A DNA stretch of 64,000 nucleotides from Halorubrum lipolyticum DSM 21995 (GTDB lineage Archaea > Halobacteriota > Halobacteria > Halobacteriales > Haloferacaceae): assembly GCF_000337375.1 (NCBI RefSeq), contig NZ_AOJG01000007.1, positions 39,971 to 103,970 on the forward strand, in the 5' to 3' direction. Shown here one piece after another: positions 9,756-64,000 of this stretch; the stretch's first letter is position 1; the number at the start of each line of letters is the position of its first letter. The position numbers were made by a program, and so were the translations under genes. The notes beneath the pieces were generated by a model. That model searched no databases. It was not told the DNA's origin and worked only from the letters and a program-made list of their open reading frames with translations.

Positions 9756-9805
9756 CTGCAGTCGGCGGCTTTGTTAACGCCCACTTACCGGGTCTGAGCC
9801 CGTGG

Positions 9806-10651: not shown

Positions 10652-11910
10652 CGTCGCCCACCCCTTCTCCTCGCTCCCCGCCGGCCATCCGTCCCTCGCT
10701 CCCCGTCGGCCACCCCTTTTCGCGGCCCGCCGCCGACCGACTCCGCGTCCCGCGCGTCGCCGACCGACTCCGCGTCTCGCGCGTCGCCGACCGATTCCTC
10801 CCCCCGCAAGCCGCCGACCACCGCTCCCGAGTCGAACGTCGCGGGGTCGAACGCGATCACCTCGCCGTGTCGCGTCCGCGTGTTGAACGGGTTGACGAGG
10901 AGCCCGCGTTCGGGGTGCGTCGCGAGGAACGCGTACGCGTTCGACGCCGGGAGGCCGGGGACGCGTTCTCCGAGGGTGTCGGCGCGCTCGAAGTCGGCGA
11001 CCGCGTGCCACCGCTCGAAGTCGGTCCGGCTCGACGCGGCGACGACGGAGACCCGTCTCGACCCCGTGTTCCCGAGGCGGTCGGCGGGGGCGACGGCGTC
11101 GGTCCCCGTCGTCGACGCCGTCGACAGCACCGCCCAGACCTCGCCGTCGTCCTCGATCGTCTCGGCGTAAAAGACGGGGTTGTCGACGGTGCCCACCGCC
11201 TCCGGTTCCGGGTCCCCGGCGGGGATCGAGCGCCGCGAGAGCCGGAGGATCTCGATCGAGGGGGCGAACGAACAGTCCATCCCCCACACCACCGCGTCGG
11301 GGGTGAACGCGAGCCCGACCGCGCGCCAGCGCTGGCTCCCGCGGCCGACCGGGCGGAAGTCGCCGCCGTCGAGGGTCCCGATCGCGCACTCGCCGTCCGC
11401 GTCTCCCGTCGTCGCCCAGAGCGACCCGCCGTACGGGTCCGAGAACACCCCGTGAAAGTGGCGCACGTCGTCCCGGGTCGCGAACTCGCGCCACGTCCGG
11501 CCGTCGTCGCTGACGAGCACGGTCGCCGGCTCGTCGCCGAGCGGGTACTCGGCGAGGTACGTCCGTCCCTCGTGGACGGCCACCGAGGTCGGCAACACCC
11601 CCATCGGTCCCGACGAGTCCGGCAGGTCGCGAACGCGCCTCCACGACCGCCCGTCGTCCGCGGAGCGGTACACCCGGTTCCCGAGCGTGGCGAGCAGCCG
11701 CCCCTCGGCGATCGGCCACACGTTCGCCCTCGTGACGCGTCCGGTGAGGCGACCGAGCAGCCACCGGGCGGACCGCCGGTCCATCCACGCCTCCCGGGCC
11801 GGGGGGCGCGGCAGCGCTCCGCGCGGTTCGAAGGCGTCGAGACGACATCGACCGACCGCTCGGCCGACGGTCGCGTACACGCGGTCGCCGTCGGCGCCCC
11901 CGAGTTTCAT
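10648..11910 (-). CDS. BNR/Asp-box repeat protein (sialidase-type beta-propeller)
   Basis: A 420-aa protein. Two clear Asp-boxes, SADDGRSWRRV and VSDDGRTWREF, and further propeller-like repeats suggest a beta-propeller like those of sialidases and glycosidases. No signal peptide is visible, so it may be cytoplasmic. The C-terminal 70 residues are low-complexity, with repeated ESVGDARDA units and Arg-rich ends. The ATG at 11910 is about 30 nt below an ATTACTTAT element; the longer upstream frame is non-coding. The stop overlaps the GTG of the acetyltransferase gene. The pair probably works on the same glycan. Catalytic sialidase residues are not evident. Confidence 0.75.
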   Translation of the reverse strand: MKLGGADGDRVYATVGRAVGRCRLDAFEPRGALPRPPAREAWMDRRSARWLLGRLTGRVTRANVWPIAEGRLLATLGNRVYRSADDGRSWRRVRDLPDSSGPMGVLPTSVAVHEGRTYLAEYPLGDEPATVLVSDDGRTWREFATRDDVRHFHGVFSDPYGGSLWATTGDADGECAIGTLDGGDFRPVGRGSQRWRAVGLAFTPDAVVWGMDCSFAPSIEILRLSRRSIPAGDPEPEAVGTVDNPVFYAETIEDDGEVWAVLSTASTTGTDAVAPADRLGNTGSRRVSVVAASSRTDFERWHAVADFERADTLGERVPGLPASNAYAFLATHPERGLLVNPFNTRTRHGEVIAFDPATFDSGAVVGGLRGEESVGDARDAESVGDARDAESVGGGPRKGVADGERGTDGRRGARRRGGRR

Positions 11911-12040
11911 GTGATCGGAGACCACCGCCCGCGAGAGATAAGTAATACTCCGGGTAACGCCCGCGTCGCGAGCTCGACCGCCGAGCGGCGTTTCGGGCGA
12001 TGCGCGGACCGCGGCTCGCTCCTGGTTCGCTCCCGGTTCG

Positions 12041-12060
12041 CTCCCGGTCCGAACCGGGAG
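12041..12060. repeat. Inverted repeat between divergent genes
   Basis: Eight-bp arms CTCCCGGT and ACCGGGAG flank a 4-bp loop. They follow three or four short GGTTCGCTCCC-like direct repeats from 12014. This lies in the 280-bp gap between the BNR gene and the divergent sulfatase gene and could be a regulatory or structural element. Confidence 0.5.
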
Positions 12061-12190
12061 GCCCCGGCTTCCGTCGGTCCGACTCCTCGCGACGCCGTCC
12101 GACGCCGCTTCGACTCCCGCGACGCCGGTTTCCGTCGGGCCGCGCTTACGCCGGTCATAACTATGCGATTGTGAGTCGCGCACTCGAGAC

Positions 12191-13585
12191 GTGAACCGCG
12201 ACATCGTCTGGGTGACGCTCGAAAGCGTTCGCCGCGACAGGACCTCGGAGGGCGCGTCCGAGCGGCGGACGACGCCGAACCTCGCCCGCCTCGCGTCCCG
12301 CGAGGACGCGGTCGGGTTCGGGAACGCCGTGGCGCACTCCATCTGGACCCGCCCCTCCACGGCGTCGATCCTCACGGGCCGCGCGCCGTCCGACCACCGC
12401 GTCTGGTCGGCCGAGGCGGCCCTGCCCGACGGGATGCGCACGGTTCCCGAGCAGCTCCGCGACGCCGGCTACCGGACCGTCGGCGTCTCGGCGAACCCGC
12501 AGTTCAGTCCGGCGACCGGGCTCGACCGCGGATTCGAACGGTTCCACTACCTCGAGCGGGGATCGCTCGTCCGCGAGGCGGGGTTCGGAACGATGTGCCG
12601 GTACCTGCTCAACGTCCGGCGCCACTCCGCCGGCCTCACGACGGACACGCGACAGCACTGCCTCGGGTTCCTCCACGACTCGATCGCCCGTCGTCACATC
12701 GGCCGGGCGGCCGACGACGACCGGCCGCTGTTCCTGTACGTCCACCTCGGCGACAGCCACCACCCGTACTGCCCGCCGAAGGGGTTCCGGGACCGGTTTG
12801 CGGACGAGCTCGCGCTCTCGCCGGCGGACGCGCTCGAGACAGTCCTCGACGCCTCCGCTCGCCTCCACGAGCACATCGCCGAGGGCGTGCCGTTCGACGA
12901 GGAGCGGTGGAACGCGCTGTCGGTCCTGTACGACACCTGCCTGGCGTACGTCGACGCGCTCGCCGGGTCCATCGTCGACGCCGCGTCGTCCCGGCTCGAC
13001 GACCCGGTGATCGTCGTCACCGCCGACCACGGCGAGTTCTTCGGCGAGGACGACCTGCTCGCGCACATGCTGTCGACGCACACGGCCGTGACCGACGTGC
13101 CGCTCGTCGTCCGCGGACTCGACGAGCGGGCGGCGGCGAACGGCCCCGTCCAGCACGCCGACGTGTGGGCGACGCTCTCGGGGCGATCGATACCCGCCGT
13201 CGACGTCCCGATCGGCCGCGACCTCGTCTCGGAGTCGCCGTCGTTCGCCGTCACCCAGCGGGGCGGCGAGCGGGCCGCGAAGAAGGTCGAGACGATCGCC
13301 GCCCACAACCCCTCGTTCGACGGCGACCGGTACGGTCGCGGCCCGGTGACCTCCCTCCGGACCGAGTCTCACCGACTCCGGCGCGACGCCGACGGCGACG
13401 CGCTGTTCGACCTCCGGGACGAGACGACCGACATCCGGGAGACGGAACCGGCGCTCGCGGCGGAACTGAGCGACGCCGCCGACGAGTGGCTCCGCGAGCG
13501 GGGACAGCCGAGCGCGGGGCACGACGGAGAGGCGACGTTCTCATCGGAGATGGAACGTCGGCTGGAAGACCTCGGCTACTTATAA
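12191..13585 (+). CDS. Sulfatase / alkaline-phosphatase superfamily protein
   Basis: A 464-aa protein. The N-terminal metal-site region is VWVTLESVRRDRT. The active-site region is WTRPSTASILTGRAPSDH, where a Ser or Thr replaces the formylglycine Cys of true sulfatases. The ADHGEFFGED segment (about residue 278) supplies metal ligands. The C-terminus ends in the LEDLGYL tag common in haloarchaeal members. No signal peptide is seen. It could transfer or remove sulfate or a phospho-group on glycans. It begins with GTG at 12191, is divergent from the BNR-acetyltransferase pair, and converges with another sulfatase-like gene 13 bp away. Confidence 0.8.
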   Translation: MNRDIVWVTLESVRRDRTSEGASERRTTPNLARLASREDAVGFGNAVAHSIWTRPSTASILTGRAPSDHRVWSAEAALPDGMRTVPEQLRDAGYRTVGVSANPQFSPATGLDRGFERFHYLERGSLVREAGFGTMCRYLLNVRRHSAGLTTDTRQHCLGFLHDSIARRHIGRAADDDRPLFLYVHLGDSHHPYCPPKGFRDRFADELALSPADALETVLDASARLHEHIAEGVPFDEERWNALSVLYDTCLAYVDALAGSIVDAASSRLDDPVIVVTADHGEFFGEDDLLAHMLSTHTAVTDVPLVVRGLDERAAANGPVQHADVWATLSGRSIPAVDVPIGRDLVSESPSFAVTQRGGERAAKKVETIAAHNPSFDGDRYGRGPVTSLRTESHRLRRDADGDALFDLRDETTDIRETEPALAAELSDAADEWLRERGQPSAGHDGEATFSSEMERRLEDLGYL

Positions 13586-50360: not shown

Positions 50361-50741
50361 ATGAGCGACGACCGCCGCTCGGTGAAGACGTACGTCCCCG
50401 AGGACCAGAAGGCGATCTGGCAGGAGCACGCCGACGAGTTGGGGATGTCGCAAAGCGAGTTCGTCAGAATGATGGTACAGTCCGGGAGACGGGAGTTTTC
50501 GATCGACAGGGCCGAGAACCCCGTCGAACCCGATCCGTCGGGGTCTGACCCTGGGGGTAGCGACCTCGAGAGGCGGGTCGAAGCGGCGCTCGCCGACGGG
50601 GTGCGCTCGTGGGACGAGCTCGTCGACGCGGTGTTCGACGACTTCGAGGGGCGGCTGGAAGACGCGCTCGATTCGCTGCAGGATCGGAACCGCGTCAGGT
50701 ACAACGGCCGGGAAGGGGGGTACGCGCTGATCGATGAGTAG
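50361..50741 (+). CDS. Ribbon-helix-helix regulator coupled to recombinase (DUF5805-like)
   Basis: A 126-aa protein. Residues 6-45 fit an RHH DNA-binding domain: a strand SVKTYVPEDQ, then IWQEHADELGM and SQSEFVRMMVQSGRREF as the two helices. An acidic linker leads to a C-terminal winged-helix-like part (DLERRVEAALADGVRSWDELVDAVFDDFEGRLEDALDSLQDRNRVRY). From memory it corresponds to the haloarchaeal family DUF5805. The stop overlaps the recombinase ATG by 8 bp (ATGAGTAG). It probably regulates the operon or helps shape the recombination complex. Confidence 0.85.
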   Translation: MSDDRRSVKTYVPEDQKAIWQEHADELGMSQSEFVRMMVQSGRREFSIDRAENPVEPDPSGSDPGGSDLERRVEAALADGVRSWDELVDAVFDDFEGRLEDALDSLQDRNRVRYNGREGGYALIDE

Positions 50742-51768
50742 CACCCGAACCCCGGCCGAGGTCGACGATCCGATCGGGTACTTCATCGAGGACCTCACCT
50801 ACCACGGGAAGACCGAACGGACGCGCGACGCCTACGAGCGCGTGCTCCGTCGGTTCGAGTCGTTTCTCGACCAGGGAACGACACCGAAATCGGCCACCCA
50901 CCGCGACTGTATGGCGTTCGTCCACTCGCTGCGCGGCGACGCCGCCGACAGCACGGTGGCGACGTACGCGGCGTATCTGCATCGATTTTACGGGTACATG
51001 ACCGAGGTCGGCGTCTTCGAGGGGAACCCGATGACGCTCGTGATGGAGGAGATGGACGAGACGGTGGATAAGGACCCCGCGCGGCGGGACGTGTCGATCC
51101 CGGCGATGCGCGAGTTCGTCGCCGGCATCCGACATCCGCTTCACCGGGCCCTCGTCGTCACGCTGTTGAAGACCGGGATGCGGGTCGGCGAGCTCTGTAA
51201 CCTCGACCTCCGTGACCTCGCGCTCGACGACGAAGAGGTCAGAGGGGCGTTCTCGCTGGGGGCGCGGCCGGCGCTCGCGGACCGACCGAACTCGCTGTAC
51301 GTCACCCCGGACGCGACGGTGGGCGAGGAGCTGAACGGAGCGGTGCGCACGGCTTCGAACAAGCGGAAGCGCGCCACCGTGATCCCGGTCGACGACGAGC
51401 TAGCCCGGACGCTGAAACGGTGGCTCGCCGTGCGGCCTGACGCCCCCTCGGACGCGGAGCCGCTGTTCGTCGGCACCGCTGAGGGGTGGGGCGAGCGGCT
51501 CGAGCCGCAGGCGGTCAGACACGTCGTCGAGCGCTACGCCCGGGAGGCGGGGTGGTACCGCACCGGCGGGGGCGCGGCCGAGAACGTCACACCGCACTAC
51601 TTCCGGCACTTCTTCACGACGCATCTTCGGGACCGAACCGGTGACCGCGGCGTCGTTAAGTACCTCCGCGGCGACGTCGCCGACGACGTGATCGACACGT
51701 ACACCCACAACTGGGGCGATCAGGTCCGCGAGACGTACGAGGCGAACGTGTATCGGCTGTCGGGATAG
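50734..51768 (+). CDS. Tyrosine recombinase (XerC/D-like)
   Basis: A 344-aa integrase. The SAM-like N-terminal domain covers about 10-105, and the catalytic domain has R150 (TGMRVGELCNLD), K210 or K212, H288 and R291 (HYFRHFF) and the nucleophile Y323 (DTYTH). The second His of the usual R-K-H-R-H-Y set, in the LGH box, is replaced: the segment reads LRGDVADD, with D314 at that place. It pairs with an RHH regulator in one message, which suggests a stable chromosomal module rather than a passing phage integrase. It may resolve dimers or mobilise a nearby element. Confidence 0.88.
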   Translation: MSSTRTPAEVDDPIGYFIEDLTYHGKTERTRDAYERVLRRFESFLDQGTTPKSATHRDCMAFVHSLRGDAADSTVATYAAYLHRFYGYMTEVGVFEGNPMTLVMEEMDETVDKDPARRDVSIPAMREFVAGIRHPLHRALVVTLLKTGMRVGELCNLDLRDLALDDEEVRGAFSLGARPALADRPNSLYVTPDATVGEELNGAVRTASNKRKRATVIPVDDELARTLKRWLAVRPDAPSDAEPLFVGTAEGWGERLEPQAVRHVVERYAREAGWYRTGGGAAENVTPHYFRHFFTTHLRDRTGDRGVVKYLRGDVADDVIDTYTHNWGDQVRETYEANVYRLSG

Positions 51769-52576: not shown

Positions 52577-53668
52577 ATGTTCGACGACCTCGACACGGAC
52601 CGGCGGCCGCTGGTTCTCATCTGGGAGGTGACGCAGGCGTGCGGGCTCGCCTGTCGTCACTGCCGCGCCGACGCGAAGCCGGCTCGTCACCCCGACGAGC
52701 TGACGACCGCGGAGGGGAAGCGGCTCCTCGACGACGCGGCGACGTTCGGAGAGGGACAGCTCGTCGTGCTCTCCGGCGGCGATCCGCTCGCCAGAGACGA
52801 TCTGCTCGATCTCGTCTCGCACGGCGACGATCGAGGGCTCCGCATGACGATCACGCCCAGCGGGACGGGGTCGCTGACCTCCGACCGGATCGAAGACCTC
52901 GCCGACGCCGGGATCCGGCGGATGGCGCTCAGCCTCGACGGCGCGACGCGAGAGAGCCACGACCGATTCCGGGGCGAGGAGAGCTTCGAGAGCACGCTTG
53001 CGGCGGCGGAAGCGGCGTCCGCCGCTGGACTGCCGCTCCAGATCAACACGACCGTCTCCGCGGAGACGGTGGACGAGCTCCCGGCGATCCGCGACCGCGT
53101 CCGAGAGCTCGGCGCCGTCCTCTGGAGCGTGTTCTTCCTCGTCCCCGTCGGACGAGGGCGGGTCCTCGATCCCGTCCCGCCGGAACGGGCGGAGGACGTG
53201 ATGGAGTGGCTCCACGGCGTCACCGAGTCGGAGCCGTTCGGCGTCAAGACGACGGAGGCGCCCTTTTACCGACGAGTTGGGATCCAGTCCGACGGGGGCG
53301 AGAGCGCGGTCCGGCGGCGCGGCGGGATCACCGCCGGCCGCGGGTTCGCGTTCGTGAGCCACACCGGCGAGGCGTACCCGTCGGGGTTCCTCCCGGAGTC
53401 GGCGGGTAACGTCCGCGACCGGTCGGTCGTCGACATCTACCGGGACGCGGACCTGTTCCAATCGCTTCGCGAGCCCGACCGGCTGAAGGGGAAGTGCGGT
53501 GCCTGCGAGTTCCGGCGGGTCTGCGGCGGGAGTCGGTCGCGGGCGTTCGCGGCGACGGGGGACCCGCTGGAGAGCGACCCGCTCTGTCCGTACGTGCCCG
53601 AGGGGTACGACGGCGAGCTGCCGCCGAGCGTCGGCGGCGGCTCGGAGCGCTCTGCAGACGCTTTATAA
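52577..53668 (+). CDS. Radical SAM/SPASM protein, heme-biosynthesis type
   Basis: A 363-aa enzyme. C22, C26 and C29 form the CxxxCxxC 4Fe-4S site (ACGLACRHCR), followed by VVLSGGDPLAR (GGE-type SAM box) and SLDGATRESHDRFRG. The C-terminal SPASM-like segment CGACEFRRVCGGSRSRAFA plus a later Cys (LCPY) binds another cluster. The pattern is that of the AhbC/AhbD group and a related haloarchaeal family, involved in alternative heme or heme d1 synthesis; the exact step is not certain. It is divergent from uspA. Confidence 0.88.
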   Translation: MFDDLDTDRRPLVLIWEVTQACGLACRHCRADAKPARHPDELTTAEGKRLLDDAATFGEGQLVVLSGGDPLARDDLLDLVSHGDDRGLRMTITPSGTGSLTSDRIEDLADAGIRRMALSLDGATRESHDRFRGEESFESTLAAAEAASAAGLPLQINTTVSAETVDELPAIRDRVRELGAVLWSVFFLVPVGRGRVLDPVPPERAEDVMEWLHGVTESEPFGVKTTEAPFYRRVGIQSDGGESAVRRRGGITAGRGFAFVSHTGEAYPSGFLPESAGNVRDRSVVDIYRDADLFQSLREPDRLKGKCGACEFRRVCGGSRSRAFAATGDPLESDPLCPYVPEGYDGELPPSVGGGSERSADAL

Positions 53669-53865
53669 GCGCAGAGTGCGCGGTCACGCGGTGTCGATCT
53701 CGACGCGAGCGCCGTCGCCGGGAATGTTCGTCGCGGTGATCGCCCGTCCTCACGGTTGTCTCCCCAGTGGACCGTATCTGCAGTAGCCCGTCTACCCAAC
53801 TCCACACCCACCGGTTTCGCGCTCGTCTTCCGAGAGCAACGGAAACGAGAATCGGAATACAGATA

Positions 53866-53878
53866 GCCGCATAGCGGC
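53866..53878. repeat. Small inverted repeat GCCGC-ATA-GCGGC
   Basis: A 13-bp hairpin, 18 bp upstream of the ATG at 53897. It may affect translation of the small protein. Confidence 0.4.
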
Positions 53879-53896
53879 AACGGGACATCTATCCAA

Positions 53897-54112
53897 ATGA
53901 CAGACGGTGACCGTTCCGAACGCGTTCCCAGTCAGCCAGTCGTTGTGCAAGAGGATACCCATCAGAACGAGATCCCAGACAATATCGACTCGGATCTCTA
54001 CTCGACGGATTCCCCGACCAACTCGTTTCACGAATTCAAGATCGAGCCCGGTGACGACCTCGTCGAAGCGCTTCGCGACAACGGCTACACGGTCGAATTC
54101 AGAGACCGGTGA
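53897..54112 (+). CDS. Small acidic protein, unknown function
   Basis: A 71-aa protein of acidic, disordered composition. The C-terminal NSFHEFKIEPGDDLVEALRDNGYTVEF has the look of a short strand-helix-strand unit. It starts about 40 nt below a GGAATAC element. No homolog is recalled. It sits at the edge of the accessory block, convergent with the 464-aa gene. Confidence 0.5.
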   Translation: MTDGDRSERVPSQPVVVQEDTHQNEIPDNIDSDLYSTDSPTNSFHEFKIEPGDDLVEALRDNGYTVEFRDR

Positions 54113-54208
54113 TCGCCTCCGGTCTGCGATCTCGACGACGAATCGGGGCCCGCGAAATCGGGTGAGTCGAGAGCGGCGCTTCGCTGCTACGCGAGCGGCG
54201 TATCGACC

Positions 54209-55603
54209 TCAGTCGTCGTTCAGTACCTCGAGCAGCGCGTCGGCGATCGGCTCGGCGGTAGTCGGTATCTCGGAAGTGGATTCGGGCGGGAGCTCAAGCG
54301 TGACGGCAGCAGTTTCGGCACTGTGTGCGGAGCGTATCGCCGGTTCGACGACGTTGCGGAGCGGCAGATTGTCCGGTGTCGTTGCAACGATCTGTAGCAG
54401 TTCGTTCGGGAGGTTCAGTGACCGGTCAACGACGCCAGCAGTCGCACCGAAATCGCCGTTGGGGTCGTGCCCGGAAAGCAAGCCGCCCAAGTACGACCGG
54501 ACGGCGTCGGCAGCGATGTCGCTTCGACTCCGATCAGTTGTCAACGCGAGCGTGTCCAGGAGAAGGGCCGTGTCAACAGAGAGGGGTACGACGACTTCTC
54601 CGGTCTCTTCAGTGCCACCGACCTGGCTCCCGGGATCGACGTTAGACCCGGTGTCCTCAACCGGTTGAGCGTCATCGGAACCGGTCGTCTCCGGCACCCC
54701 TTCTGATTCGTCGGACTCTGAACCCTCCCCTAACGGAGTGAATGAGAGGGTTTCGGGGAAGGGGTGTTCCTCGACGATCCGCTCCGCGTATGTCCGGGCG
54801 ACCGACGGATTCGCCGGAGCGGTTGCAACTCCCTCGGGCCACGCAGCCTCGAAGATCTTCGCCGCGTCCATCGTGTTGGAGACGTACAAGATGGGAGATC
54901 CGCTTTTCGTCGACAGATTGCTGTGTTTCACATCGAGCGTGTCGATCCACTCTTTCAGCTGTTCGAGGCGGTCCCCACCGTCTCTCCCTCGGATCGTCCA
55001 GCCTCCGTCCACTCCGAGGTTTCCGATGTTCTCAAGCACCGCACGCACCATCGCGCGTCTGTGTTCGTCCGGGACCGGTGGGAGCGTCGCGACGTTCCGG
55101 GCGGAATCGGTCAGTCCGTGGTCCGCGAGGACGTCGAGGAACTCCGCGTTTGAGATTAGCGTGGTGGCTTGCACGGACTCCGGTGTTTCGAACTCGTTGA
55201 TGGAGTAGTCGGAATCGACTGCGGCGGCGAACTCCGTGACGTAGTATCGCTTGTCTCCGGTCCGACCCAGCTGTAGTGCCCGTCCGTTGTTTCCCTGCTC
55301 GCTTATCGTGGACCGACTGAAGAGGACACCCAACCAGTACGCCTTCTCGTCCGTATCGATCGTCTCGAAATACGTTTCGTTGATGCTGACGCGCGAGTGG
55401 CCGGCCACGCTACGGATGTCGAGGTCCGCAGCCCGTTTCGCATCGTTCCACGAGCCGAAGGCGTTTTTGATCGCCGTCGACGAAGGCGAGACGTCCAACG
55501 AGTCATACTCACGCACGGTCGGAGACTCGCCGACGATTTCAGCGGCTTCGTGCAAGCCGTCAAGGCAGTTCCGCTGGTGTTGAGAGTACTCTGAATCACT
55601 CAT
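54209..55603 (-). CDS. Homing-endonuclease-like protein with RHH-like C-terminus
   Basis: A 464-aa protein. Residues 8-62 (HQRNCLDGLHEAAEIVGESP to AKRAADL) fit the helix-turn-helix repeat associated with homing endonucleases. Residues 86-100, EKAYWLGVLFSRSTI, align with the first LAGLIDADG helix, and 183-200 (RRAMVRAVLENIGNLGVD) with the second. The usual acidic active-site residue of the first motif is lost (FSRS for FADG), so cleavage looks impaired. From about 335, two clear and one weaker RHH-like modules follow an acidic linker. The start overlaps the previous gene by ATGAGTGA. A DNA-binding regulator or partner of the helicase seems likely, as in WhiA-type domesticated enzymes. Confidence 0.7.
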   Translation of the reverse strand: MSDSEYSQHQRNCLDGLHEAAEIVGESPTVREYDSLDVSPSSTAIKNAFGSWNDAKRAADLDIRSVAGHSRVSINETYFETIDTDEKAYWLGVLFSRSTISEQGNNGRALQLGRTGDKRYYVTEFAAAVDSDYSINEFETPESVQATTLISNAEFLDVLADHGLTDSARNVATLPPVPDEHRRAMVRAVLENIGNLGVDGGWTIRGRDGGDRLEQLKEWIDTLDVKHSNLSTKSGSPILYVSNTMDAAKIFEAAWPEGVATAPANPSVARTYAERIVEEHPFPETLSFTPLGEGSESDESEGVPETTGSDDAQPVEDTGSNVDPGSQVGGTEETGEVVVPLSVDTALLLDTLALTTDRSRSDIAADAVRSYLGGLLSGHDPNGDFGATAGVVDRSLNLPNELLQIVATTPDNLPLRNVVEPAIRSAHSAETAAVTLELPPESTSEIPTTAEPIADALLEVLNDD

Positions 55604-56072
55604 CGTTGGCGCCTCGAGCGGTGTCAAGCGGATCGGAGAGCGAGTCGGAGCCCTCGTCGAGAAGCGCTCGTCGCAGGGCTGTCGGTCTATCGGCGTACTC
55701 GCCGGCGAACACGAGCGCGTCCAGCGTAGCGATGATGCTGCCCGGAAGCTCAACAGTGACCGACTCAGTGGCCGACTCCGTTCGTGTTTCGAGTGCGGAA
55801 GCGACGAACCCTTCAACGCCGTGGTCGCCGCCGACCGCTGCAGCCATCGTCTGTTGTCGCTTTGAGAGCGAAACGGGCACTTCCGTCCCGTTCTCGACGG
55901 TGACGTCTGTCCTGACATCGCCGTCGACGCTCGTTTTGAGATGGTCGCTGACGAGGTCCGCAACCACGGTACTCAACTCACGATCACTCTCGTCCGCGCG
56001 TGTTTCGAGGGCAAGTGCCGTTCCCGGAGAAACCGTTACGCTCACGATCTCCCGTTCGGTATCCGTGTTCAT
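55596..56072 (-). CDS. Triple RHH-like-module protein
   Basis: A 158-aa protein made of three similar strand-helix-helix units: about 10-47 (VSVTVSPGTALALETRADES...), 64-98 (VPVSLSKRQQTMAAAV...) and 104-140 (VTVELPGSIIATLDALVFAG...). Each has a short beta strand, a helix, a turn and a second helix, as in ribbon-helix-helix proteins, and the last is the most typical. No other domain is present. The helicase C-terminus and the 464-aa protein have the same units, suggesting assembly together or binding to the same DNA. Its stop overlaps the next start by 8 bp; the helicase gene ends 63 bp upstream. Confidence 0.65.
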   Translation of the reverse strand: MNTDTEREIVSVTVSPGTALALETRADESDRELSTVVADLVSDHLKTSVDGDVRTDVTVENGTEVPVSLSKRQQTMAAAVGGDHGVEGFVASALETRTESATESVTVELPGSIIATLDALVFAGEYADRPTALRRALLDEGSDSLSDPLDTARGANDE

Positions 56073-56135
56073 TTGTTTTCGCTCCGTGTGGAATGAGTCA
56101 ATGGTATCACGTGGGACAGTTTGGGCAATCGGCCG

Positions 56136-59100
56136 TTAGTTCTGACTCCGCTGCAACCGGCGACGTACACTCTCGCGAATGAACGCCTCAGGGTCCGCCT
56201 CGGGTTGAGTTGAAACCGCTGCGCGTAACTCGCCACCCAGCGAGATCTCGATGGCCATCTCGTCGCCACTGATCGCTAACTCGTGAGCCAAAGCGGTTTC
56301 GACGAGCGCGTCGACAGTGTCGAACGGATCGCTCTCATCCTCGACGACGGCGGTGGCGATCGGAAGATGCCGCTCGGAGAGCTCCGCGGACAGGCCCGTC
56401 GTCTCGAACGCTCGTTCGGAGAACACCGGCGGAACCGGCTCTGACACGAGTCGTTTCAACAGCGTACCGGTTGCGTCCTCCACGAGCGACGAGAGGTCGT
56501 CGTAACGGCCCTCCGACACGGCATCTCGAGCGGCCGACAGCACGACCGGACTCACGGAGATGCCCTGTGGCCCCTCGTCCGGTTCGCCCGGACCGACGAT
56601 CCCTTCGGTAGTGAGTTTCCGTCCGTCGCCGAGCGGGATCCGGTACACGCCGTCTTCGTCTCGGGGGAAGAAGATCGGGTCGTCTTGGGTGTAATCGATG
56701 CCGAGGCTCGCCGCGGCGTCACTGGCTAGCATCACGCCTCTGTCCCGGGGAGGCTCCGGCCACACTTGTTTGTATTCGGGCAGCGATCCGGGCTCACCGT
56801 CGCCGTCGCGGTTATCGCAGACCTCTCGGTACGACCTGTAACGGCGGAGCCATTCCACTAGCGTCTCGTGGACCGGCGTCCCGGCGACCTCGTCGCCCAC
56901 GTCGGCCTGCCAGACGCCCGCTTCGTCTTTGTACGTCTTTACCGTGGAGCCGTGGAGCTCGCGGATGACGGCTTTCGTCGCGCGATACGGCCCGAGTGCG
57001 AGTCGGTACTGTTCGTAGTTCTGATTCCGCTCGTCGAAGGGGCCGTCGGCGCGATCGATACTCTCGGAGGCGTCACCGCCCGACCAGCTGGTAAGAGCGG
57101 GAGGTGCAACGTCGTCCTCATTTGCCGTATCGTACACGAGGCCTTGGATCGTGTGGAAGTGATCGCGGGCATCGTCACGGACGATCGGGGTGAGATCGTC
57201 GATCCGTTCCACCATCCGCACGCCGCCCCGTTCGAGTTCGGTGAGCGTGTCACTGATCGACTCGTCGACGGCGAAGCGGGGCGTTTCACGGAATCCGTCC
57301 CCGAGCGAGACGAACTCGGCGGCGCGCCCGAGCAGCGTCGCACCGTCCTCGACAACGTCCACCGCGTCGGACCGCGCCGGGGTCGGAACGACGTGGTAGA
57401 ACTGCGCCTGCTTCTCTCCGGTGGGATTCCGAAGCACGCGCCCGATCCGCTGGACGAGCGAGGGGTTCACGCCGCCGCGTGCAACGTTGACTGCAACCTC
57501 AGCGTCCGGCATGTCGACACCGGTCCCGAGGAGGTTCCCCGGCCCGATGATGACGCCGCGGTCACTGTCGTTGAAGTCGTCGATGACCCCGATCCGGTCG
57601 ACCGTGCTGTCTCCGAGCGCAAACACGGCCGCCTCTCCGTAGCGCTCGGCGAGTGACGACGCGAGCTCGCGGGCGGCTTCGTACGACTGGACGAGGACGA
57701 CCGTCTTCGCCTCGGGCGCGTGTTTATCGACGATGTCGATGACCGACTGCTGACGCGGAGAGACGTTCCACCGCTGGACCTGTCGAGCCTGCAGGGCGGA
57801 CGCGAACGCGTCGAACTCCGGAGCGTTTCCGCGGAGGTCGCGCGCGTCTGCCGTTTTGACGAACGAGCGGAGACGGCGGTACGTCGTCGGTTCCGGTGGG
57901 AGGGCTTCACGGGAGACACCGAGAGAATCGGCGTTCAGCGTCCCGTCCGCGGAGTCGTACGCGTCGACAAGCCGGGTTGTCAGTTCGGCCAAGGTCGTCT
58001 CGTCGCTCGACAGCGTCGGGACGTAGCTGACCGTCCACGAGAAATCGGCGATCACGCCTTGTTCGCGGGCCGTCGCGATATCGAACCGCGACACTTCACC
58101 GAGGTGCTTCTCGAGCGCGTCTTGGACGCCTTCGTCGCCGAGCCAGCCCTGATCGATCGATCCGGACATCGCAAGCACGGCGTTGCCACCCTCGGTGAGT
58201 CGCTCGAACAGGTCGCCCCATCCGCCGCTCGCTTGGCCGCGACTGTATCTGTGGGCCTCGTCGAGAATGATCAGGTCGTACTGACTGAATCCCTCCCGCT
58301 GGAGCAGCGCCTGAGAGGTGGCGAACTCGATTCGACCCCATCTGAGAGCGATCTCTCGGCGGCCGTCGACTTCCCTCGGTATCGTCCGCGCTTCCGGAAT
58401 ATCGAGGTGCGTGTCGAACTCTTGACGCCACTGAGACAACAGCAGGTCGTTGCCGGCGACAATCAGAACCCTGGGGGTGGCGTCGGTAGCCGGGCCGCTG
58501 TCGAGAGAGTTGTCGAACGGGCCGCGAGCCGTGTCGGCCTCGATCAGTCCCGAATCAACGGGGTGGAGTCCGCCCGCTCCGCTCGGGCTCAGGTCGCGAT
58601 AGCGGGTCGCGATGGCCGCGAGGCCGAGGACCGTCTTCCCGGTTGCAGTCGCCATGTTGACGTAGCCGCGCTGACCCGCGTCGACCCAGCTCCTGAGCGC
58701 TTTTCGCTGGTGATCCCACAGCGGCGTCGTCAACTGAGGGCTATCGAGCAGGTGCGCGAGGGTATCGGAGGGAGTGTCCCCGTCGGGGAGTCGGTCAAAC
58801 AGCTCCGTCGCGTAGGCGGTCACCGTCGGATCCGAGAAGAGCCGCGCGATCAGGTCCGCAGTCGAGTCGCTGTCGCGAAGCATCCGCAGACCCGCGCCGT
58901 CGTTCGCGTCACTACGGCTGCTCTCCTCGATCGCCGCCGTCGCCTGCTTCTCGACGATCGCTTCGATAGCGCGGTCGACATCGTACTCCTCGTCGGAATC
59001 GCCGAGCGCGTCTCGCAACCCGGTGAGTTGGAACGCCAGTTCGCCCACTCGCTGGTCGTCGTAACTGCGCAGCGTCTCTCGCAGCGTCTGTCCGTCACCG

Positions 59101-59366
59101 GCGAGCTCCTGAAGGCCGCTGACGTAAAACGAGCCGGTCGCGGTTCCGAAATTCTCTCTGTCTATCGTGCCCCCGAAATCGCTGTCCTTCGCGGCTTTCC
59201 CGACGCCGATCCCGTACAAGACGTCGAGGGCCGCTCGGTCGATCTGAGCGGGGTATTGCGCGACGGAGATGTTCTCGCGGGTGAGTCGATCGGCCTCGAA
59301 CGACTCACTCGGTGTGTGCCGGTTATTCGAAACTACCTTGTCGACGTCGAATCCGGGGCCGGCCAT
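56136..59366 (-). CDS. SF2 DEAH-type helicase with RHH-like C-terminal repeats
   Basis: A 1076-aa protein. A unique N-terminal region of about 200 residues precedes a two-lobe SF2 core: MATATGKT (238-245, Walker A), ILDEAH (DEAH 369-372), MSGS (motif III, about 400) and QRIGRVLR (639-646, motif VI). A middle region (about 660-930) contains no recognised domain. The last 140 residues form three RHH-like units (about 936-973, 990-1032, 1036-1073). The core resembles restriction- and repair-type helicases (XPB or type III like). The ATG at 59366 is chosen because the TATA element at 59448-59455 would start RNA near 59425, below the alternatives at 59468 and 59459. No nuclease domain is seen. Confidence 0.8.
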   Translation of the reverse strand: MAGPGFDVDKVVSNNRHTPSESFEADRLTRENISVAQYPAQIDRAALDVLYGIGVGKAAKDSDFGGTIDRENFGTATGSFYVSGLQELAGDGQTLRETLRSYDDQRVGELAFQLTGLRDALGDSDEEYDVDRAIEAIVEKQATAAIEESSRSDANDGAGLRMLRDSDSTADLIARLFSDPTVTAYATELFDRLPDGDTPSDTLAHLLDSPQLTTPLWDHQRKALRSWVDAGQRGYVNMATATGKTVLGLAAIATRYRDLSPSGAGGLHPVDSGLIEADTARGPFDNSLDSGPATDATPRVLIVAGNDLLLSQWRQEFDTHLDIPEARTIPREVDGRREIALRWGRIEFATSQALLQREGFSQYDLIILDEAHRYSRGQASGGWGDLFERLTEGGNAVLAMSGSIDQGWLGDEGVQDALEKHLGEVSRFDIATAREQGVIADFSWTVSYVPTLSSDETTLAELTTRLVDAYDSADGTLNADSLGVSREALPPEPTTYRRLRSFVKTADARDLRGNAPEFDAFASALQARQVQRWNVSPRQQSVIDIVDKHAPEAKTVVLVQSYEAARELASSLAERYGEAAVFALGDSTVDRIGVIDDFNDSDRGVIIGPGNLLGTGVDMPDAEVAVNVARGGVNPSLVQRIGRVLRNPTGEKQAQFYHVVPTPARSDAVDVVEDGATLLGRAAEFVSLGDGFRETPRFAVDESISDTLTELERGGVRMVERIDDLTPIVRDDARDHFHTIQGLVYDTANEDDVAPPALTSWSGGDASESIDRADGPFDERNQNYEQYRLALGPYRATKAVIRELHGSTVKTYKDEAGVWQADVGDEVAGTPVHETLVEWLRRYRSYREVCDNRDGDGEPGSLPEYKQVWPEPPRDRGVMLASDAAASLGIDYTQDDPIFFPRDEDGVYRIPLGDGRKLTTEGIVGPGEPDEGPQGISVSPVVLSAARDAVSEGRYDDLSSLVEDATGTLLKRLVSEPVPPVFSERAFETTGLSAELSERHLPIATAVVEDESDPFDTVDALVETALAHELAISGDEMAIEISLGGELRAAVSTQPEADPEAFIRESVRRRLQRSQN

Positions 59367-59447
59367 CAGGTCACACCGGATCCGGAGAGCGCAGTGCCAG
59401 GTTGTTTCAGGGTGTCTTGTCTCACACAGCGATAGTATTCTCCTACG

Positions 59448-59455
59448 GTTATAAA
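59448..59455 (-). promoter_or_regulatory. TATA element of the helicase gene
   Basis: TTTATAAC on the minus strand predicts RNA starting near 59425, leaving a leader of about 60 nt before the ATG at 59366. It separates the helicase unit from the upstream J-domain unit. Confidence 0.55.
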
Positions 59456-59494
59456 TCATGTTTGCCAACCAGTTCTCCTCAACAGTCGTCGATG

Positions 59495-61051
59495 CTACCG
59501 ACTCGACCGGTCACCGATGCGCTCGACCATCGCGTACGTCACGAAGACGGTCGACGGCCACGCGCATGCGACGATCACAATGGCGGCGGCTACAGTCGTC
59601 GCGGGGGGAACGCCCCACAGCGCCCACAGCGTGTTTCCGGTCAAAGCCCACCCGGTCAGGAGCACGAACGGGGCCGCGGCGAACAGCTCCCATCCGAGAA
59701 CGCGTCCCCCGCCGACGGCTCCGTCTCGAAGTAGGTCCGAGAACCCGAGGAGCAGAAGCAGGAGGCCGAAGGCGAGAGAGTAAAACAGCACGATAGCCAG
59801 CCCGAAATTCGCCGCCCATCCCGGTGTGAAGCCGACTACCGGACCGACAGACACCCACGGGGCGATAACGCTGGCGGGCTCGTTCTCAATGGCCCGAAAC
59901 GGGATCCACCACCGGTACGGCGTGAACTCGACCGCGAACACGATCAGCGACGAGAACGCCCCGACAGACACGGCGAGCAGCGGGCTACCAGCCGACCAGA
60001 ACACCGCTCCGGCCGCACCGAGACCGACGAGTAACAGCGGACCACCGATGAGGACCCCGGCGAACCTGCTGAACAGCAGTCCGCCGTTCGCGCTCCCCTG
60101 AGCGACTGCGGCAAGCAGAATAACCGGCCCGATCCCGGAGAGGAGTGCGTACAGCACGGCATCGTCCGGGTCGAGAGCCGGAGCGCTTCGGGGAGTCGCG
60201 CGCAGGACGGAGAGGGCGTCACGACCGAAGACGAACCCGAAGCCGGCGACGACCCCCATCCCGACCGACAGGCCTCCGGACATCCCCCCAATCGAGCCGA
60301 AGACGGCCGAGAGCAAAGACGATAACACGACGCCGGCGAGCGTGCGTGGATACCCTCTCCCGTTCTCGGTCGCCGCCGCTGAGCGACGGCGACGGTCGCT
60401 ACCGGTCCCCGTCGTCGTTGTACTCGTGCTCGCACCCGTGTTCGCGCTCCCCCAGTCCGAGTGACTCGCTGTACCGGTCTGCGCGCCGTCGCCCGCGGTC
60501 GCGTTTGAACGGCTCGACGTCGATCGGCCCGACCGATCCCACCCAGCGTCCCCGGTCTTAGCCGTGCGCTGCTGGCTTGTCGTCTCCGACCCGCTCTCCG
60601 CCCAGGACTGACCGGTGCCCGTTTCGCTTGCCCCCCCGGACGTCGAGTCCCGAGTCGTTCTGTCGGTTCCGGCTGAGGCGTTCGCGGCGTCGTGGCCGCG
60701 ATCGGTGTGGCCAGTCCGCCCCGACGCTGTCCGCTCGTCCGTCGACGCGTCGTGAGCAGACGATGAACCTTCCTCGCCCGCAGATTCGCCAGTTGACCTA
60801 GCCGGTTCCCATCCCCCCGGGTTTGCAACTCTGACGTATTCATCGTGACCCAAGCGGTCATATCGACGTCGCTCCGAGAATGACGTCAGGGTATCCCGAG
60901 CAGACTTGAGCCTCTTGAACTCACTTCTGGACCCACCTTGGTCCGGGTGGTACGTTTTGACGAGCGTCCGATACTGTTCCTGTATCTCGTCCGTGGAGGC
61001 GTCCGTTCCGACTTCGAGCAACGAATAGAACGGAGGGACATCGTCACTCAT
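59495..61051 (-). CDS. J-domain protein with multi-TM C-terminus
   Basis: A 518-aa protein. Residues 6-70 are a J-domain with H35-P36-D37 (YHPDQGG), the Hsp70-stimulating motif, and a final RRRYDRLG. Residues 75-240 are a long Ser/Thr/Gly-rich disordered linker. From about 250 to 510 there are seven to nine hydrophobic helices. It can therefore place a J-domain on the membrane and recruit DnaK there. It overlaps the 181-aa gene by 8 bp (ATGAGTGA) and lies upstream of the helicase gene, so the block combines chaperone recruitment with a helicase. Confidence 0.82.
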   Translation of the reverse strand: MSDDVPPFYSLLEVGTDASTDEIQEQYRTLVKTYHPDQGGSRSEFKRLKSARDTLTSFSERRRYDRLGHDEYVRVANPGGWEPARSTGESAGEEGSSSAHDASTDERTASGRTGHTDRGHDAANASAGTDRTTRDSTSGGASETGTGQSWAESGSETTSQQRTAKTGDAGWDRSGRSTSSRSNATAGDGAQTGTASHSDWGSANTGASTSTTTTGTGSDRRRRSAAATENGRGYPRTLAGVVLSSLLSAVFGSIGGMSGGLSVGMGVVAGFGFVFGRDALSVLRATPRSAPALDPDDAVLYALLSGIGPVILLAAVAQGSANGGLLFSRFAGVLIGGPLLLVGLGAAGAVFWSAGSPLLAVSVGAFSSLIVFAVEFTPYRWWIPFRAIENEPASVIAPWVSVGPVVGFTPGWAANFGLAIVLFYSLAFGLLLLLLGFSDLLRDGAVGGGRVLGWELFAAAPFVLLTGWALTGNTLWALWGVPPATTVAAAIVIVACAWPSTVFVTYAMVERIGDRSSR

Positions 61052-61589
61052 ACTCGTACCCCTCCCAGTCGAACGAAGGAGTCTTTTCGTACACGTCTCG
61101 ATATTCGTGTTCTAATAATTCCGAGTAGGTTAAATGAAGGGCCTTTGCCACCGCCCACGGGCGGTGGCCATACGCGGACAAATATATCGCAATTGCGCCC
61201 GGGCCGTGCGCGGCGACACGGACCGGAATTCGAGGCCGTTCCTCACCTGGAATCCAATACATCGCGGCACACTCGACGTCTTGACGGTAACGGAGAGGAC
61301 CAACGAGTTCCTCCACCTGTGCCCAGTCGGTGGCTCGACCGACCGCTTGTCGCCTGTCACCGGAGAATGGAATAACGCCATCGACGCGATTGAGGTCATC
61401 AGCTGTCAGGGACACGGTCTCACCCGCAGCGGCATCTATCGACGCGACGGAATCGCGTTTGAGGTCCGCGCGTTTCTCTGTTTTTGCAGGCCATCGAACA
61501 CCTCTCGGGGGCGTCTTTGTGGGGACGTAGTAGACGGTATCAGGAGACGCGAGCACGACGCCATAGGTCGCGGTGACGATAACGTCCAT
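61044..61589 (-). CDS. 181-aa protein of the J-domain/helicase block
   Basis: A 181-aa protein of unknown family. The N-terminal VIVTATYGVVLASPDTVYYVPTKTPPRGVRWP is followed by a middle part with WAQVEELVGPLRYRQDVECAAMYWIPGE. The C-terminal GAIAIYLSAYGHRPWAVAKALHLTYSELLEHEYRDVYE looks like a helix-turn-helix. Its start overlaps the preceding stop (TGATG) and its stop overlaps the J-domain start (ATGAGTGA), so all three genes are coupled. A regulator or adaptor function fits; nothing more can be said. Confidence 0.7.
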   Translation of the reverse strand: MDVIVTATYGVVLASPDTVYYVPTKTPPRGVRWPAKTEKRADLKRDSVASIDAAAGETVSLTADDLNRVDGVIPFSGDRRQAVGRATDWAQVEELVGPLRYRQDVECAAMYWIPGEERPRIPVRVAAHGPGAIAIYLSAYGHRPWAVAKALHLTYSELLEHEYRDVYEKTPSFDWEGYEYE

Positions 61590-62407
61590 CACCGGTCCCC
61601 TCCGTTGCTACCGGTCTCGACCGCGAGACCGAGCGAAACGACCACAATCGTCAGTGTGGGGGCGTTAGCCACGAACCCCGCGACATCGAGTCCGATCAGA
61701 CACAACGCGATCGCGCTCCCCATCTGGAAGCGGCGGAGGGTAACGTAATCCAACAGGACAGGACGAAACACGACGGACAGCATAACGAGCGAAACTCCGG
61801 AGAGCGCCGCGGCGAGCGACCGTCCGACGACCGCCCACTCGGTCGTCAGCCCAGTCCACACCCACGGCATCATTCCGTCACCGGGGAGTACGACTGTCAC
61901 CTCGCCAGTAACGACGCTCGCGAGTACATCGAGAATCATCAAACACGTTACGGCGCCGCCGATCGTCAGCAGCGAGGGGACCCAGGAGGGCGTGGAGCCG
62001 TTAACGATGTCGAACGCGATGACCCACAACACGACCACCGTGAGAAGGGAGAAACCCTCTACCCAGAGCGCGTTCTGAGAGGCCGTCGCGACGGCTGCGG
62101 AGAAGGCGGCTGCCGGGAGCTGTACGGCCCCGATGAGACACACGAGTTTCAGTCCCCGTGCTCGGCTCGCGGAGAGCCTCGCGAATACGATCGAAATCGC
62201 TGCTGGGCCGCCGAACACGACTGCCCCGAGCCCGATTGCACCGGTAAGCGAATCCAACGCACCGGACGTGACCATCGACTGGTAAATCCCGGTGAACGGC
62301 AGAAGCATCACTACCGCAAGCGCCTTCGCCCCGGGAACTGCCAGCAGCTGCTGGACCCCTGTTGACGCACGCTGAAGGCCTCCCGGAAGTGCGAAAGAGA
62401 GACTCAT
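61589..62407 (-). CDS. Multi-TM protein heading the J-domain block
   Basis: A 272-aa protein with about seven predicted helices from residue 20 to 265 (ALAVVMLLPFTGIYQ, GLGAVVFGGPAAISIVFA, VLWVIAFDIVNG and others). It has no recognisable motif. The ATG at 62407 begins after a purine-poor leader; the frame upstream is non-coding. The stop shares bases with the next ATG (TGATG). It is probably the membrane partner of the J-domain protein, which has a similar helix-rich half. Confidence 0.7.
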   Translation of the reverse strand: MSLSFALPGGLQRASTGVQQLLAVPGAKALAVVMLLPFTGIYQSMVTSGALDSLTGAIGLGAVVFGGPAAISIVFARLSASRARGLKLVCLIGAVQLPAAAFSAAVATASQNALWVEGFSLLTVVVLWVIAFDIVNGSTPSWVPSLLTIGGAVTCLMILDVLASVVTGEVTVVLPGDGMMPWVWTGLTTEWAVVGRSLAAALSGVSLVMLSVVFRPVLLDYVTLRRFQMGSAIALCLIGLDVAGFVANAPTLTIVVVSLGLAVETGSNGGDR

Positions 62408-62612
62408 CGGCCGCCCCCCAATCCACGGTGACCTGTAGACCGGTCTTTTTGAACCGAGTTTACAGGAAAGTATCCGGCTGCCGCCACGGTGGGAGTTGAA
62501 CACTGTGCCACATCGGTAGGCTTGGTGGGACACACCATTGAGATATGCCGACCGACGGCAGCGTAGGGGGCTTCCAACCAGTAGTTGGTGTCGTATCATC
62601 CAATACGACAGG

Positions 62613-62623
62613 CAGAATATATT
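62613..62623 (+). promoter_or_regulatory. AGAATATATTA promoter element for the 179-aa gene
   Basis: An A/T-rich TATA-like sequence on the plus strand, about 80-130 nt before the possible starts of the following gene. Confidence 0.4.
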
Positions 62624-62695
62624 ACTCTTTTGCCCAGAGGGATCCGGACCGACAGTGCGCGTCGTGCAGCGCCGATCGGGACGAATCGGTGACTC

Positions 62696-63235
62696 GTGTC
62701 GCTCGAGTGGACCGGGAGAGGTTTCACGGTCGGCCAGCACGTACGGCTCGTCATGACGCGCCGTCTCCCGGAGTTACCGTCGGAGCTCGCTATCGGCGAC
62801 AGCAGGCAGCCTTCACAACCAGACAGCAGCCCCGCGCAACGGAAAGACCTGATTACGGAATCCAACTTGATTTCGGGGTGGAACGAATACGGGGACGTGG
62901 TGGATAACGCGATCACCGAGGCGTCGTTAGGCTCGAACATCGAAATCGGAGCGCGTTTTAGCCCACAGATCGTCGATAAGGCGATCCGTTTTGTCACCCG
63001 TTCGAGAGTGTTCAACGCAGACGGGCTGTGTGTGAGCGTCACCGAAGACCTCGGAACGTATCCGGTCGAAAACGACGCCAACTACAGTTGGGAGGCGTAT
63101 CACAGCCACAACTCCGGCGGATGGGACGCCGGCGAATACACCGCGGAATTCGTCGTCTGGGACATGAATCAGCAAGTGACGTCAGCGCCGGTAGAGACGA
63201 CGTTCACAGTGGTCGGAACTGTCGAACCAGAGTGA
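62696..63235 (+). CDS. Beta-sandwich-like protein, start uncertain
   Basis: A 179-aa frame. The last 125 residues (ITESNLISGWNEYGDVVDNAI... to the TTFTVVGTVEPE end) read as an Ig-like or cupredoxin-like beta sandwich of the kind usually found in secreted proteins: NYSWEAYHSHNSGGWDAGEYTAEFVVWDMN. The N-terminus is poor: a GTG at 62696 or an ATG at 62753, neither giving a signal peptide. Upstream frames have coding-like bits, so the original signal peptide may have been lost by frameshift or deletion. This may be a decaying gene. Confidence 0.55.
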   Translation: MSLEWTGRGFTVGQHVRLVMTRRLPELPSELAIGDSRQPSQPDSSPAQRKDLITESNLISGWNEYGDVVDNAITEASLGSNIEIGARFSPQIVDKAIRFVTRSRVFNADGLCVSVTEDLGTYPVENDANYSWEAYHSHNSGGWDAGEYTAEFVVWDMNQQVTSAPVETTFTVVGTVEPE

Positions 63236-63364
63236 GTTCTCCCACGAGTCTGTCGCCGTGAGCCGGAGCTTCGTCACGGAAACCACGACCTCGGCGAGTA
63301 GTCTCCGATCGGGGTACTCCGGAGGAGCAAAATGAGAGTAGAACGATAGAACGAGCGTCTTCCT

Positions 63365-63820
63365 ATGTGTGAACGATGTAACGAAGAGCATGACGACGAC
63401 TACGACGGAGATTCGATCGCGGAAAAACGCCGGAAAGCGGTCGCCTCGATAATTACTCGTCACCCGGAGTTGGGACTTCGACCGGACGACGTGACGTTTC
63501 GATTCGTCCCGAAACACAAGCGACAGTGTCTCCGGATCAACTTGAACACCGACGCGCCTCGATACGAGATCCACGTGCCCAAATCGATGGGGCAAGCGAT
63601 GGCGGGCAGCCCGCCTCTGTCCGGTGTGGCGATGGCGGCGTGTCTCGAAACGGGGAACCCCTACGAGGAGACGTGTGACGTGTTGGCCGTGCCCTCCGAC
63701 ACGCACCTCGAGGCCCTGTTCCTCTCCGAGGAACCGCCGGTCGACCTCAATCGAACCGAATCACCGACTCAGAAGACCAGTTTTGACTCGACGATCACTG
63801 ACCTCCATTCGGACGAGTAG
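63365..63820 (+). CDS. Small protein with N-terminal CxxC, unknown function
   Basis: A 151-aa protein. CERCNEEHDDDYDGD at the start holds a CxxC pair. The middle KAVASIITRHPELGLRPDDVTFRFVPKHKRQCLRINLNTDAPRYEIHVPKSMGQAM reads as a mixed alpha/beta domain, and PYEETCDVLAVPSDTHLEALFLSEEPPVDL follows. The composition is normal for haloarchaea. No family is recalled. It lies downstream of the possibly decaying beta-sandwich gene. Confidence 0.65.
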   Translation: MCERCNEEHDDDYDGDSIAEKRRKAVASIITRHPELGLRPDDVTFRFVPKHKRQCLRINLNTDAPRYEIHVPKSMGQAMAGSPPLSGVAMAACLETGNPYEETCDVLAVPSDTHLEALFLSEEPPVDLNRTESPTQKTSFDSTITDLHSDE

Positions 63821-64000
63821 TTCCGGATCTTCACCGTCGAGTGGAGCGCGGTTTTCGACGCCGACGCGCTCGACGACGCAGCCGAGGCCGCGACGTCGTC
63901 GAGGGCCGTCTCCCGCGACACCGGACGCTGATCGCTTGTGCGTGCGCGCGAAGGTCGAACCGTGGGTTGCACGAGTCTCTCTCACCCGTCGGCGAACGAT

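Follow-up and report, generated by a model that had tools for sequence, protein, structure and literature searches.

Matched triple ribbon-helix-helix tails on a helicase and two adjacent proteins suggest a modular, probably anti-invader system in Halorubrum lipolyticum

The analysed DNA is a 64,000-nucleotide stretch of Halorubrum lipolyticum DSM 21995 (contig NZ_AOJG01000007.1, positions 39,971 to 103,970), hereafter called the window, in which six minus-strand open reading frames (ORFs) are arranged head to tail between 54209 and 62407. We propose that three of these, encoding a superfamily 2 (SF2) helicase (HEL), a 158-residue protein (g158) and a 464-residue protein (g464), constitute one helicase-centred and probably anti-invader module whose members are joined by matched C-terminal tails of three ribbon-helix-helix (RHH) units each, a reading to which we assign a probability of about 0.5. 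The genomic context makes a defence role likely. An earlier reading of the window, made from the sequence alone, had described all six genes; the ORFs were found as described, including the SF2 helicase and a DnaJ domain with an HPD motif. The features of the proposed module are as follows.

54209 to 55603, minus strand: g464, with an HNH_repeat (residues 14–62), a LAGLIDADG domain (about 78–260) and a triple-RHH tail (about 330–464)
55596 to 56072, minus strand: g158, a bare triple-RHH protein of 158 residues
56136 to 59366, minus strand: HEL, SF2 helicase of 1076 residues (longest ORF 56136–59468), with a helicase core (about 200–700), a clade-specific region (about 760–925) and a triple-RHH tail (about 928–1074)
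56136 to 56582, minus strand: triple-RHH tail of HEL (residues 928–1074; E 7e-49 with the tail profile)

Results

The triple tail is a distinct RHH family

Three strand-helix-helix (RHH) units are present in each of HEL, g158 and g464, although the third is weak or degenerate in g464. An iterated hidden Markov model (HMM) of the triple tail retrieved 21 proteins at E≤1e-23, and the next protein followed at 8e-4; with this clean separation the triple tail is, by sequence, one homologous family. The repeated module that the sequence-only reading had claimed for the three proteins, including the weak third copy in g464, was recovered by this model, and hhalign comparisons show the modules to be homologous to one another (P 5e-8 to 5e-10, as opposed to 0.05 or worse in reversed controls).

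The RHH identity of the tails was assigned because several individually weak matches (E 0.01–0.2 each) agree. Matches to Pfam RHH_1 were weak for single sequences (E 0.1), with the best member of the tail family reaching E 9.4e-6, and a profile built from eight tails placed the solved RHH proteins CopG, VapB26 and ParD at the top (E 0.013–0.11). Among structures, the tail profiles retrieved mostly solved RHH proteins. When the AlphaFold2 (AF2) model of g158 (pLDDT 62.5, pTM 0.43) was compared to known structures using Foldseek, places 1–9 were taken by chains of the F-plasmid relaxosome, which we take from the entries to be TraY, and by AvtR (E 0.034–0.2), with single-chain Arc (scArc) and DndE ranking lower. 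The profile and structure searches are thus in line with the RHH-type fold suggested earlier for the modules.

The family is rare, the first profile detecting it in 12 of 293 genomes (E≤1e-4) and a second in 36 of 392 (E≤1e-6), and all three copies detected in this genome sit within the locus described here. Its carriers include SF2 helicases, TFIIB-core, BRCT, beta-lactamase-fold (MBL), HNH-repeat and LAGLIDADG proteins (the LAGLIDADG assignment of the G081 carrier was made by eye) as well as a 565-residue family, labelled CSD in the tree after a cold-shock-like stretch recognized by eye that has no Pfam match. BRCT-type domains with a triple-RHH tail occur in loci L073, L074, L077 and L122, and in two genomes their chromosomal setting is conserved. 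Searches of the open-access literature turned up no account of the triple-RHH tail as a module shared between proteins, which is weak evidence of novelty.

Tailed helicases have tailed neighbours

Six loci encoding a triple-tail HEL had a readable context: the window, G126, the Haloferax lucentense plasmid pSVX82-3, G379, G265 and G342. At every one of these, at least one gene for a triple-tail partner adjoins HEL, versus none of the 18 loci where HEL has no triple tail (stretches of about 20 kb; Fisher's exact test, 7e-6). The expected co-occurrence of the helicase and module proteins in other haloarchaea was therefore found when gene neighbourhoods were compared. As G126, G379 and pSVX82-3 represent one lineage and G265 and G342 another, the counts were also collapsed by lineage, giving 3/3 versus about 0/10 (0.0035; the ten is a rough estimate). 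Two further genomes were kept outside the count, namely G174, where a transposase gene and contig ends interrupt HEL and the case is undecidable, and G203, where the triple-tail HEL lies on a 5.5-kb contig.

The payloads of the partners are unrelated, comprising TFIIB, MBL, HNH repeats and the 565-residue protein. An HNH-repeat payload is fused straight to HEL in L035, L037 and L039 (E 2e-36 to 5e-62), whereas in the window, G265 and G342 a tailed protein distinct from HEL carries it. In L043 and L084 the HELs lack RHH tails and are adjoined by likewise untailed readers of the g464 type. Taken as sequence evidence, the matched tails of the six loci suggest that the tails connect different proteins to a common machine.

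In the phylogenetic tree the tails cluster by the role of the bearing protein more than by locus. Support is 99% for the pairing of the HEL tails from G265 and G342 and lower for the HEL tail of the window, which joins them; the g158 tail, whose closest relatives are the HNH-repeat partner tails of the same two genomes, joins these with support below 80%. This pattern suggests that the pair of HEL tail and partner tail was inherited together.

A different tail was observed in L038, where the HEL (9324–12767) ends in an Ig-like and helix-hairpin-helix (HHH) region weakly similar to a neighbouring protein of 216 residues (8425–9075). This non-RHH tail is possibly a second kind of matched tail.

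The ribbon strands favour docking over DNA binding

The tails could alternatively be DNA-binding arrays, with the proteins meeting on one DNA element rather than contacting one another. DNA binding is the classical function of the RHH fold, the proteins matched by g158 in Foldseek are DNA-binding RHH proteins, and the tandem RHH of TraY and DndE binds DNA, with ribbon strands of DNA-binding RHH proteins bearing arginine or lysine (PMC10853773). The tails lack such a basic or polar ribbon: lysine or arginine was present in 29% of 113 tail ribbon strands versus 92% of 13 haloarchaeal RHH_1 ribbons, with means of 0.33 and 1.54 per ribbon, respectively, the controls being a small set picked by eye from RHH_1 matches and the tail strands being related to one another. 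Independence is therefore overstated by the p-values, but the difference is large. The tail ribbons are acidic, with one lysine or arginine in total among the nine strands at this locus. Acidity is general among haloarchaeal proteins, yet the RHH_1 controls are haloarchaeal too. We therefore consider DNA-binding arrays improbable. As the ribbons are poor in basic residues compared to the haloarchaeal controls, protein docking is favoured over DNA binding, and we interpret the tails as homotypic docking modules resembling effector-associated domains (EADs), rather than as primarily DNA binders; the RHH modules themselves probably do not bind DNA. Of the earlier proposal that the subunits assemble through matched modules on DNA, assembly through matched modules is retained as the best reading, while DNA binding by the modules is not.

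HEL is an SF2 helicase and g464 a probable DNA reader

HEL carries ResIII and Helicase_C domains, and the SF2 motifs TATGKT, DEAH/DEVH and QR.GR are kept in seven relatives, so that by its motifs HEL is an intact SF2 helicase. A start at 59366 is more likely than one at 59468, since the relatives begin at the former position. The best family matches were partial and far below full-length scores (PbeA, 81.7 bits; TIGR04095, 63.7 bits with a cut-off of 600; DpdE, 34 bits with a cut-off of 500). HEL has no PLD Pfam match, no HKD motif and no PD-(D/E)XK motif, and no nuclease motif was found in the HEL-g158-g464 module as a whole.

Relatives of HEL were found in 33 of the 293 genomes of the order (E≤1e-30), with a patchy distribution. 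Their neighbours include PbeC (L042), TGT and DpdJ-like genes (L035), PD-(D/E)XK and UvrD genes, and AAA and VWA genes. One of these relatives is encoded elsewhere in this genome (L035, G000:C39), a protein of 1552 residues with fused HNH repeats, which also has a carboxypeptidase-regulatory-like domain and an HHH domain. HEL relatives are also found inside giant fusion proteins of 2369–3266 residues (L044–L048, L050). No relative was detected in a phage collection or in IMG/VR, the latter scanned by short peptide patterns that distant relatives may escape, and a viral origin of HEL was dropped as a candidate. Pattern scans of genome contigs with HEL and JTM (see below) likewise gave no match, which does not mean absence, since the genome searches found relatives.

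The N-terminal part of g464 matches Pfam HNH_repeat (E 1.5e-9), and the protein also matches phrog_4645. Residues 1–260 gave a high-pLDDT AF2 model consisting of HNH-repeat helices and a LAGLIDADG domain, and Foldseek matched this part to I-DmoI, I-SceI and WhiA (E 5e-6 to 6e-4). While the LAGLIDADG fold is present, the catalytic acid of each motif is not: the catalytic positions read ADG and GDG in viral relatives and SRS and NIG in g464. All three HEL-linked haloarchaeal LAGLIDADG domains are without the acid at both positions (SRS/ARS; NIG/SSG/SAG). Because both catalytic acids are lost, g464 probably reads DNA without cutting it.

The J-domain and membrane genes form a separate unit

Upstream of HEL lie a candidate promoter element and the other three of the six genes.

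59449 to 59455, minus strand: TATA-like box TTTATAA, read from the sequence, in the gap between JTM and HEL
59495 to 61051, minus strand: JTM, J-domain and multi-transmembrane protein (DnaJ, E 4.5e-13)
61044 to 61592, minus strand: g181, protein of 181 residues with no known domain (55.8% identical homologue in L087)
61589 to 62407, minus strand: TM272, DUF5794 membrane protein (PF19107, E 2.5e-9; 38.5% homologue in L087)

The sequence-only reading had placed all six genes in a single membrane-linked system with chaperone recruitment. The head-to-tail order and the short gaps speak for this: g464 and g158 share 8 nt, a gap of 63 nt separates g158 from HEL, and within the trio JTM/g181 and g181/TM272 overlap by 8 and 4 nt, respectively. 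The two blocks are, on the other hand, divided by a gap of 128 nt holding the TTTATAA box, a possible separate promoter for HEL-g158-g464. The JTM DnaJ domain has the HPD motif, and the trio is kept in G188 (L087, 9270–12119) with order and overlaps unchanged (TM272 38.5%, g181 55.8% and JTM 36.7% identity), where it adjoins McrB- and McrC-like genes and where neither a HEL relative (E≤1e-30) nor a triple tail (E≤1e-4) was found. Nor was the trio found in the triple-tail HEL neighbourhoods of other genomes that were compared with the trio proteins. As the trio recurs in G188 without HEL or the triple tail, it is, judged by sequence, an independent three-gene unit outside the HEL-g158-g464 system; a single six-gene system is very unlikely, and with the trio separate, the proposed link to a membrane complex and DnaK lost its support. 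The trio is rare, with the membrane part of JTM found in two of 195 genomes. The proximity of a DUF5794 gene to HEL in L044 is probably coincidence, as it adjoins a housekeeping gene there.

The locus lies in a variable island

53641 to 64000, no strand: variable island, between a conserved radical-SAM gene and tRNA-Arg(tcg)

The interval from the radical-SAM gene to tRNA-Arg(tcg), which is located shortly after the window end (about 65498 when counted as in the window), measures 11.9 kb here versus about 1.0 kb in the relative G361. G120 has about 11 kb of other genes in the same interval, including a PD-(D/E)XK-like/UvrD pair recognized by N-terminal resemblance. The site is thus variable and fits either a defence or a mobile function. 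An integrase and an RHH gene at 50361–51768 were dropped as part of the island, since they are conserved in the flanks of relatives, and a search for an att duplication of tRNA-Arg revealed no repeat.

The island bears on whether the complex serves replication, repair or the maintenance of a mobile element, in an XPB/AddAB-like manner, rather than defence. Such a role is suggested by the XPB-type similarity of the C-terminal helicase part of HEL, by the PD-(D/E)XK and UvrD genes that follow HEL in G126, G379, G342 and the Haloferax plasmid, and by the plasmid location of one copy. The patchy occurrence of HEL relatives, the variable island and the recurrent neighbours PbeC and TGT/DpdJ-like genes argue against it, and we regard a repair or maintenance complex as unlikely.

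A small ORF in the island (53897–54112, plus strand) encodes a protein of 71 residues with the motif NEIPDNIDS-LY and no Pfam match, relatives of which occur near triple-tail genes in L083 (9613–9813) and L078 (12042–12242); it is possibly a small partner. Two other short plus-strand ORFs (62753–63235 and 63365–63820) have no significant family match. A pilin-like gene lies at the island edge, just past the window end (L034, about 1135–1554), and L219 has related genes at this site.

Discussion

In the proposed helicase-centred module, the tails would work by RHH pairing. As an RHH unit folds only as a pair, units 1 and 2 of a tail would pair within the chain, as in TraY and DndE, and docking onto the tail of another subunit would be left to the third, odd unit or to swapped pairs. 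The tails would thereby couple the translocase to DNA readers such as g464, with g158 acting as a bare linker or cap. HEL would translocate on reader-marked DNA and block replication or transcription of the invader; alternatively, it may load a nuclease supplied elsewhere, as the module itself showed no nuclease motif. More tentatively, the RHH may have been turned in haloarchaea into a portable homotypic docking code, in which an odd number of units leaves one without a mate, so that pairing must occur between chains and interchangeable readers or effectors are connected to a defence helicase; we hold this to be somewhat doubtful. The HELs of L049, L051 and L052 seem to carry two RHH units each and lack an RHH partner; such even, self-paired tails are in line with this parity rule but no proof of it.

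Several observations weigh against the proposed module. The defence role rests on genomic context, the six loci shrink to about three lineages, confidence in the AF2 model of the g158 tail is low, and g464 has a degenerate third unit. Many BRCT and MBL carriers have no helicase nearby, and the tail is therefore a general haloarchaeal device rather than one private to HEL. Finally, neighbouring EAD copies are usually mutual closest relatives (PMC7159879), whereas the tails of one locus are not.

If the reading is correct, any tail-bearing haloarchaeal protein may be connected to a helicase or to a second protein with the tail, the tail alone provides a handle for finding new members of defence systems, and the odd-unit pairing rule is testable.

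Comparison with known systems

Among known systems, the HEL core is most similar to PbeA of PbeABCD, the system with a CxC ABC ATPase (PMC6459918; PMC10853773), and HEL relatives occur beside PbeC in L042. In PbeABCD a PLD/HKD nuclease is carried on the PbeA helicase, which HEL lacks, and neither PbeC (the CxC ABC ATPase), its DndE-like partner nor PbeD is among the ORFs listed for the island. HEL also matches DpdE of the Dpd system for 7-deazaguanine DNA weakly, and TGT and DpdJ-like genes are found close to HEL relatives, among them the paralogue of this genome; the island itself has no TGT among its genes, and the DpdE score is far from its cut-off (34 versus 500 bits).

The tandem RHH proteins TraY, DndE and AvtR share with the tails the predicted intrachain RHH pair and the best fold matches. 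They have two units, whereas the tails have three, with basic-poor ribbons, and are appended to unrelated proteins. With non-cleaving LAGLIDADG proteins of the WhiA type, g464 has the fold as a DNA reader in common (Foldseek), but in g464 it is preceded by an HNH_repeat, followed by a triple-RHH tail and linked to a helicase. This suggests that the LAGLIDADG domain was retained as a reader after the loss of cleavage.

The closest parallel in organization is found in the EAD-coupled conflict systems (Kaur et al. 2020, PMC7159879), where the same small non-enzymatic domain is borne by a core protein and by payloads encoded in adjacent genes. The tail is likewise found on a core NTPase and on different payloads in adjacent genes, and as in EAD systems, where the payload is sometimes fused directly to the core, HNH_repeat-HEL fusions occur in L035, L037 and L039. 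Besides the lack of close kinship between same-locus tails, the two differ in their components: EAD cores are MoxR-vWA and GTPase proteins mainly of multicellular bacteria, while the present system has an archaeal SF2 helicase as its core and a triple RHH as its coupling domain. The adaptor logic of bacterial conflict systems would thus extend to archaea, with a different domain.

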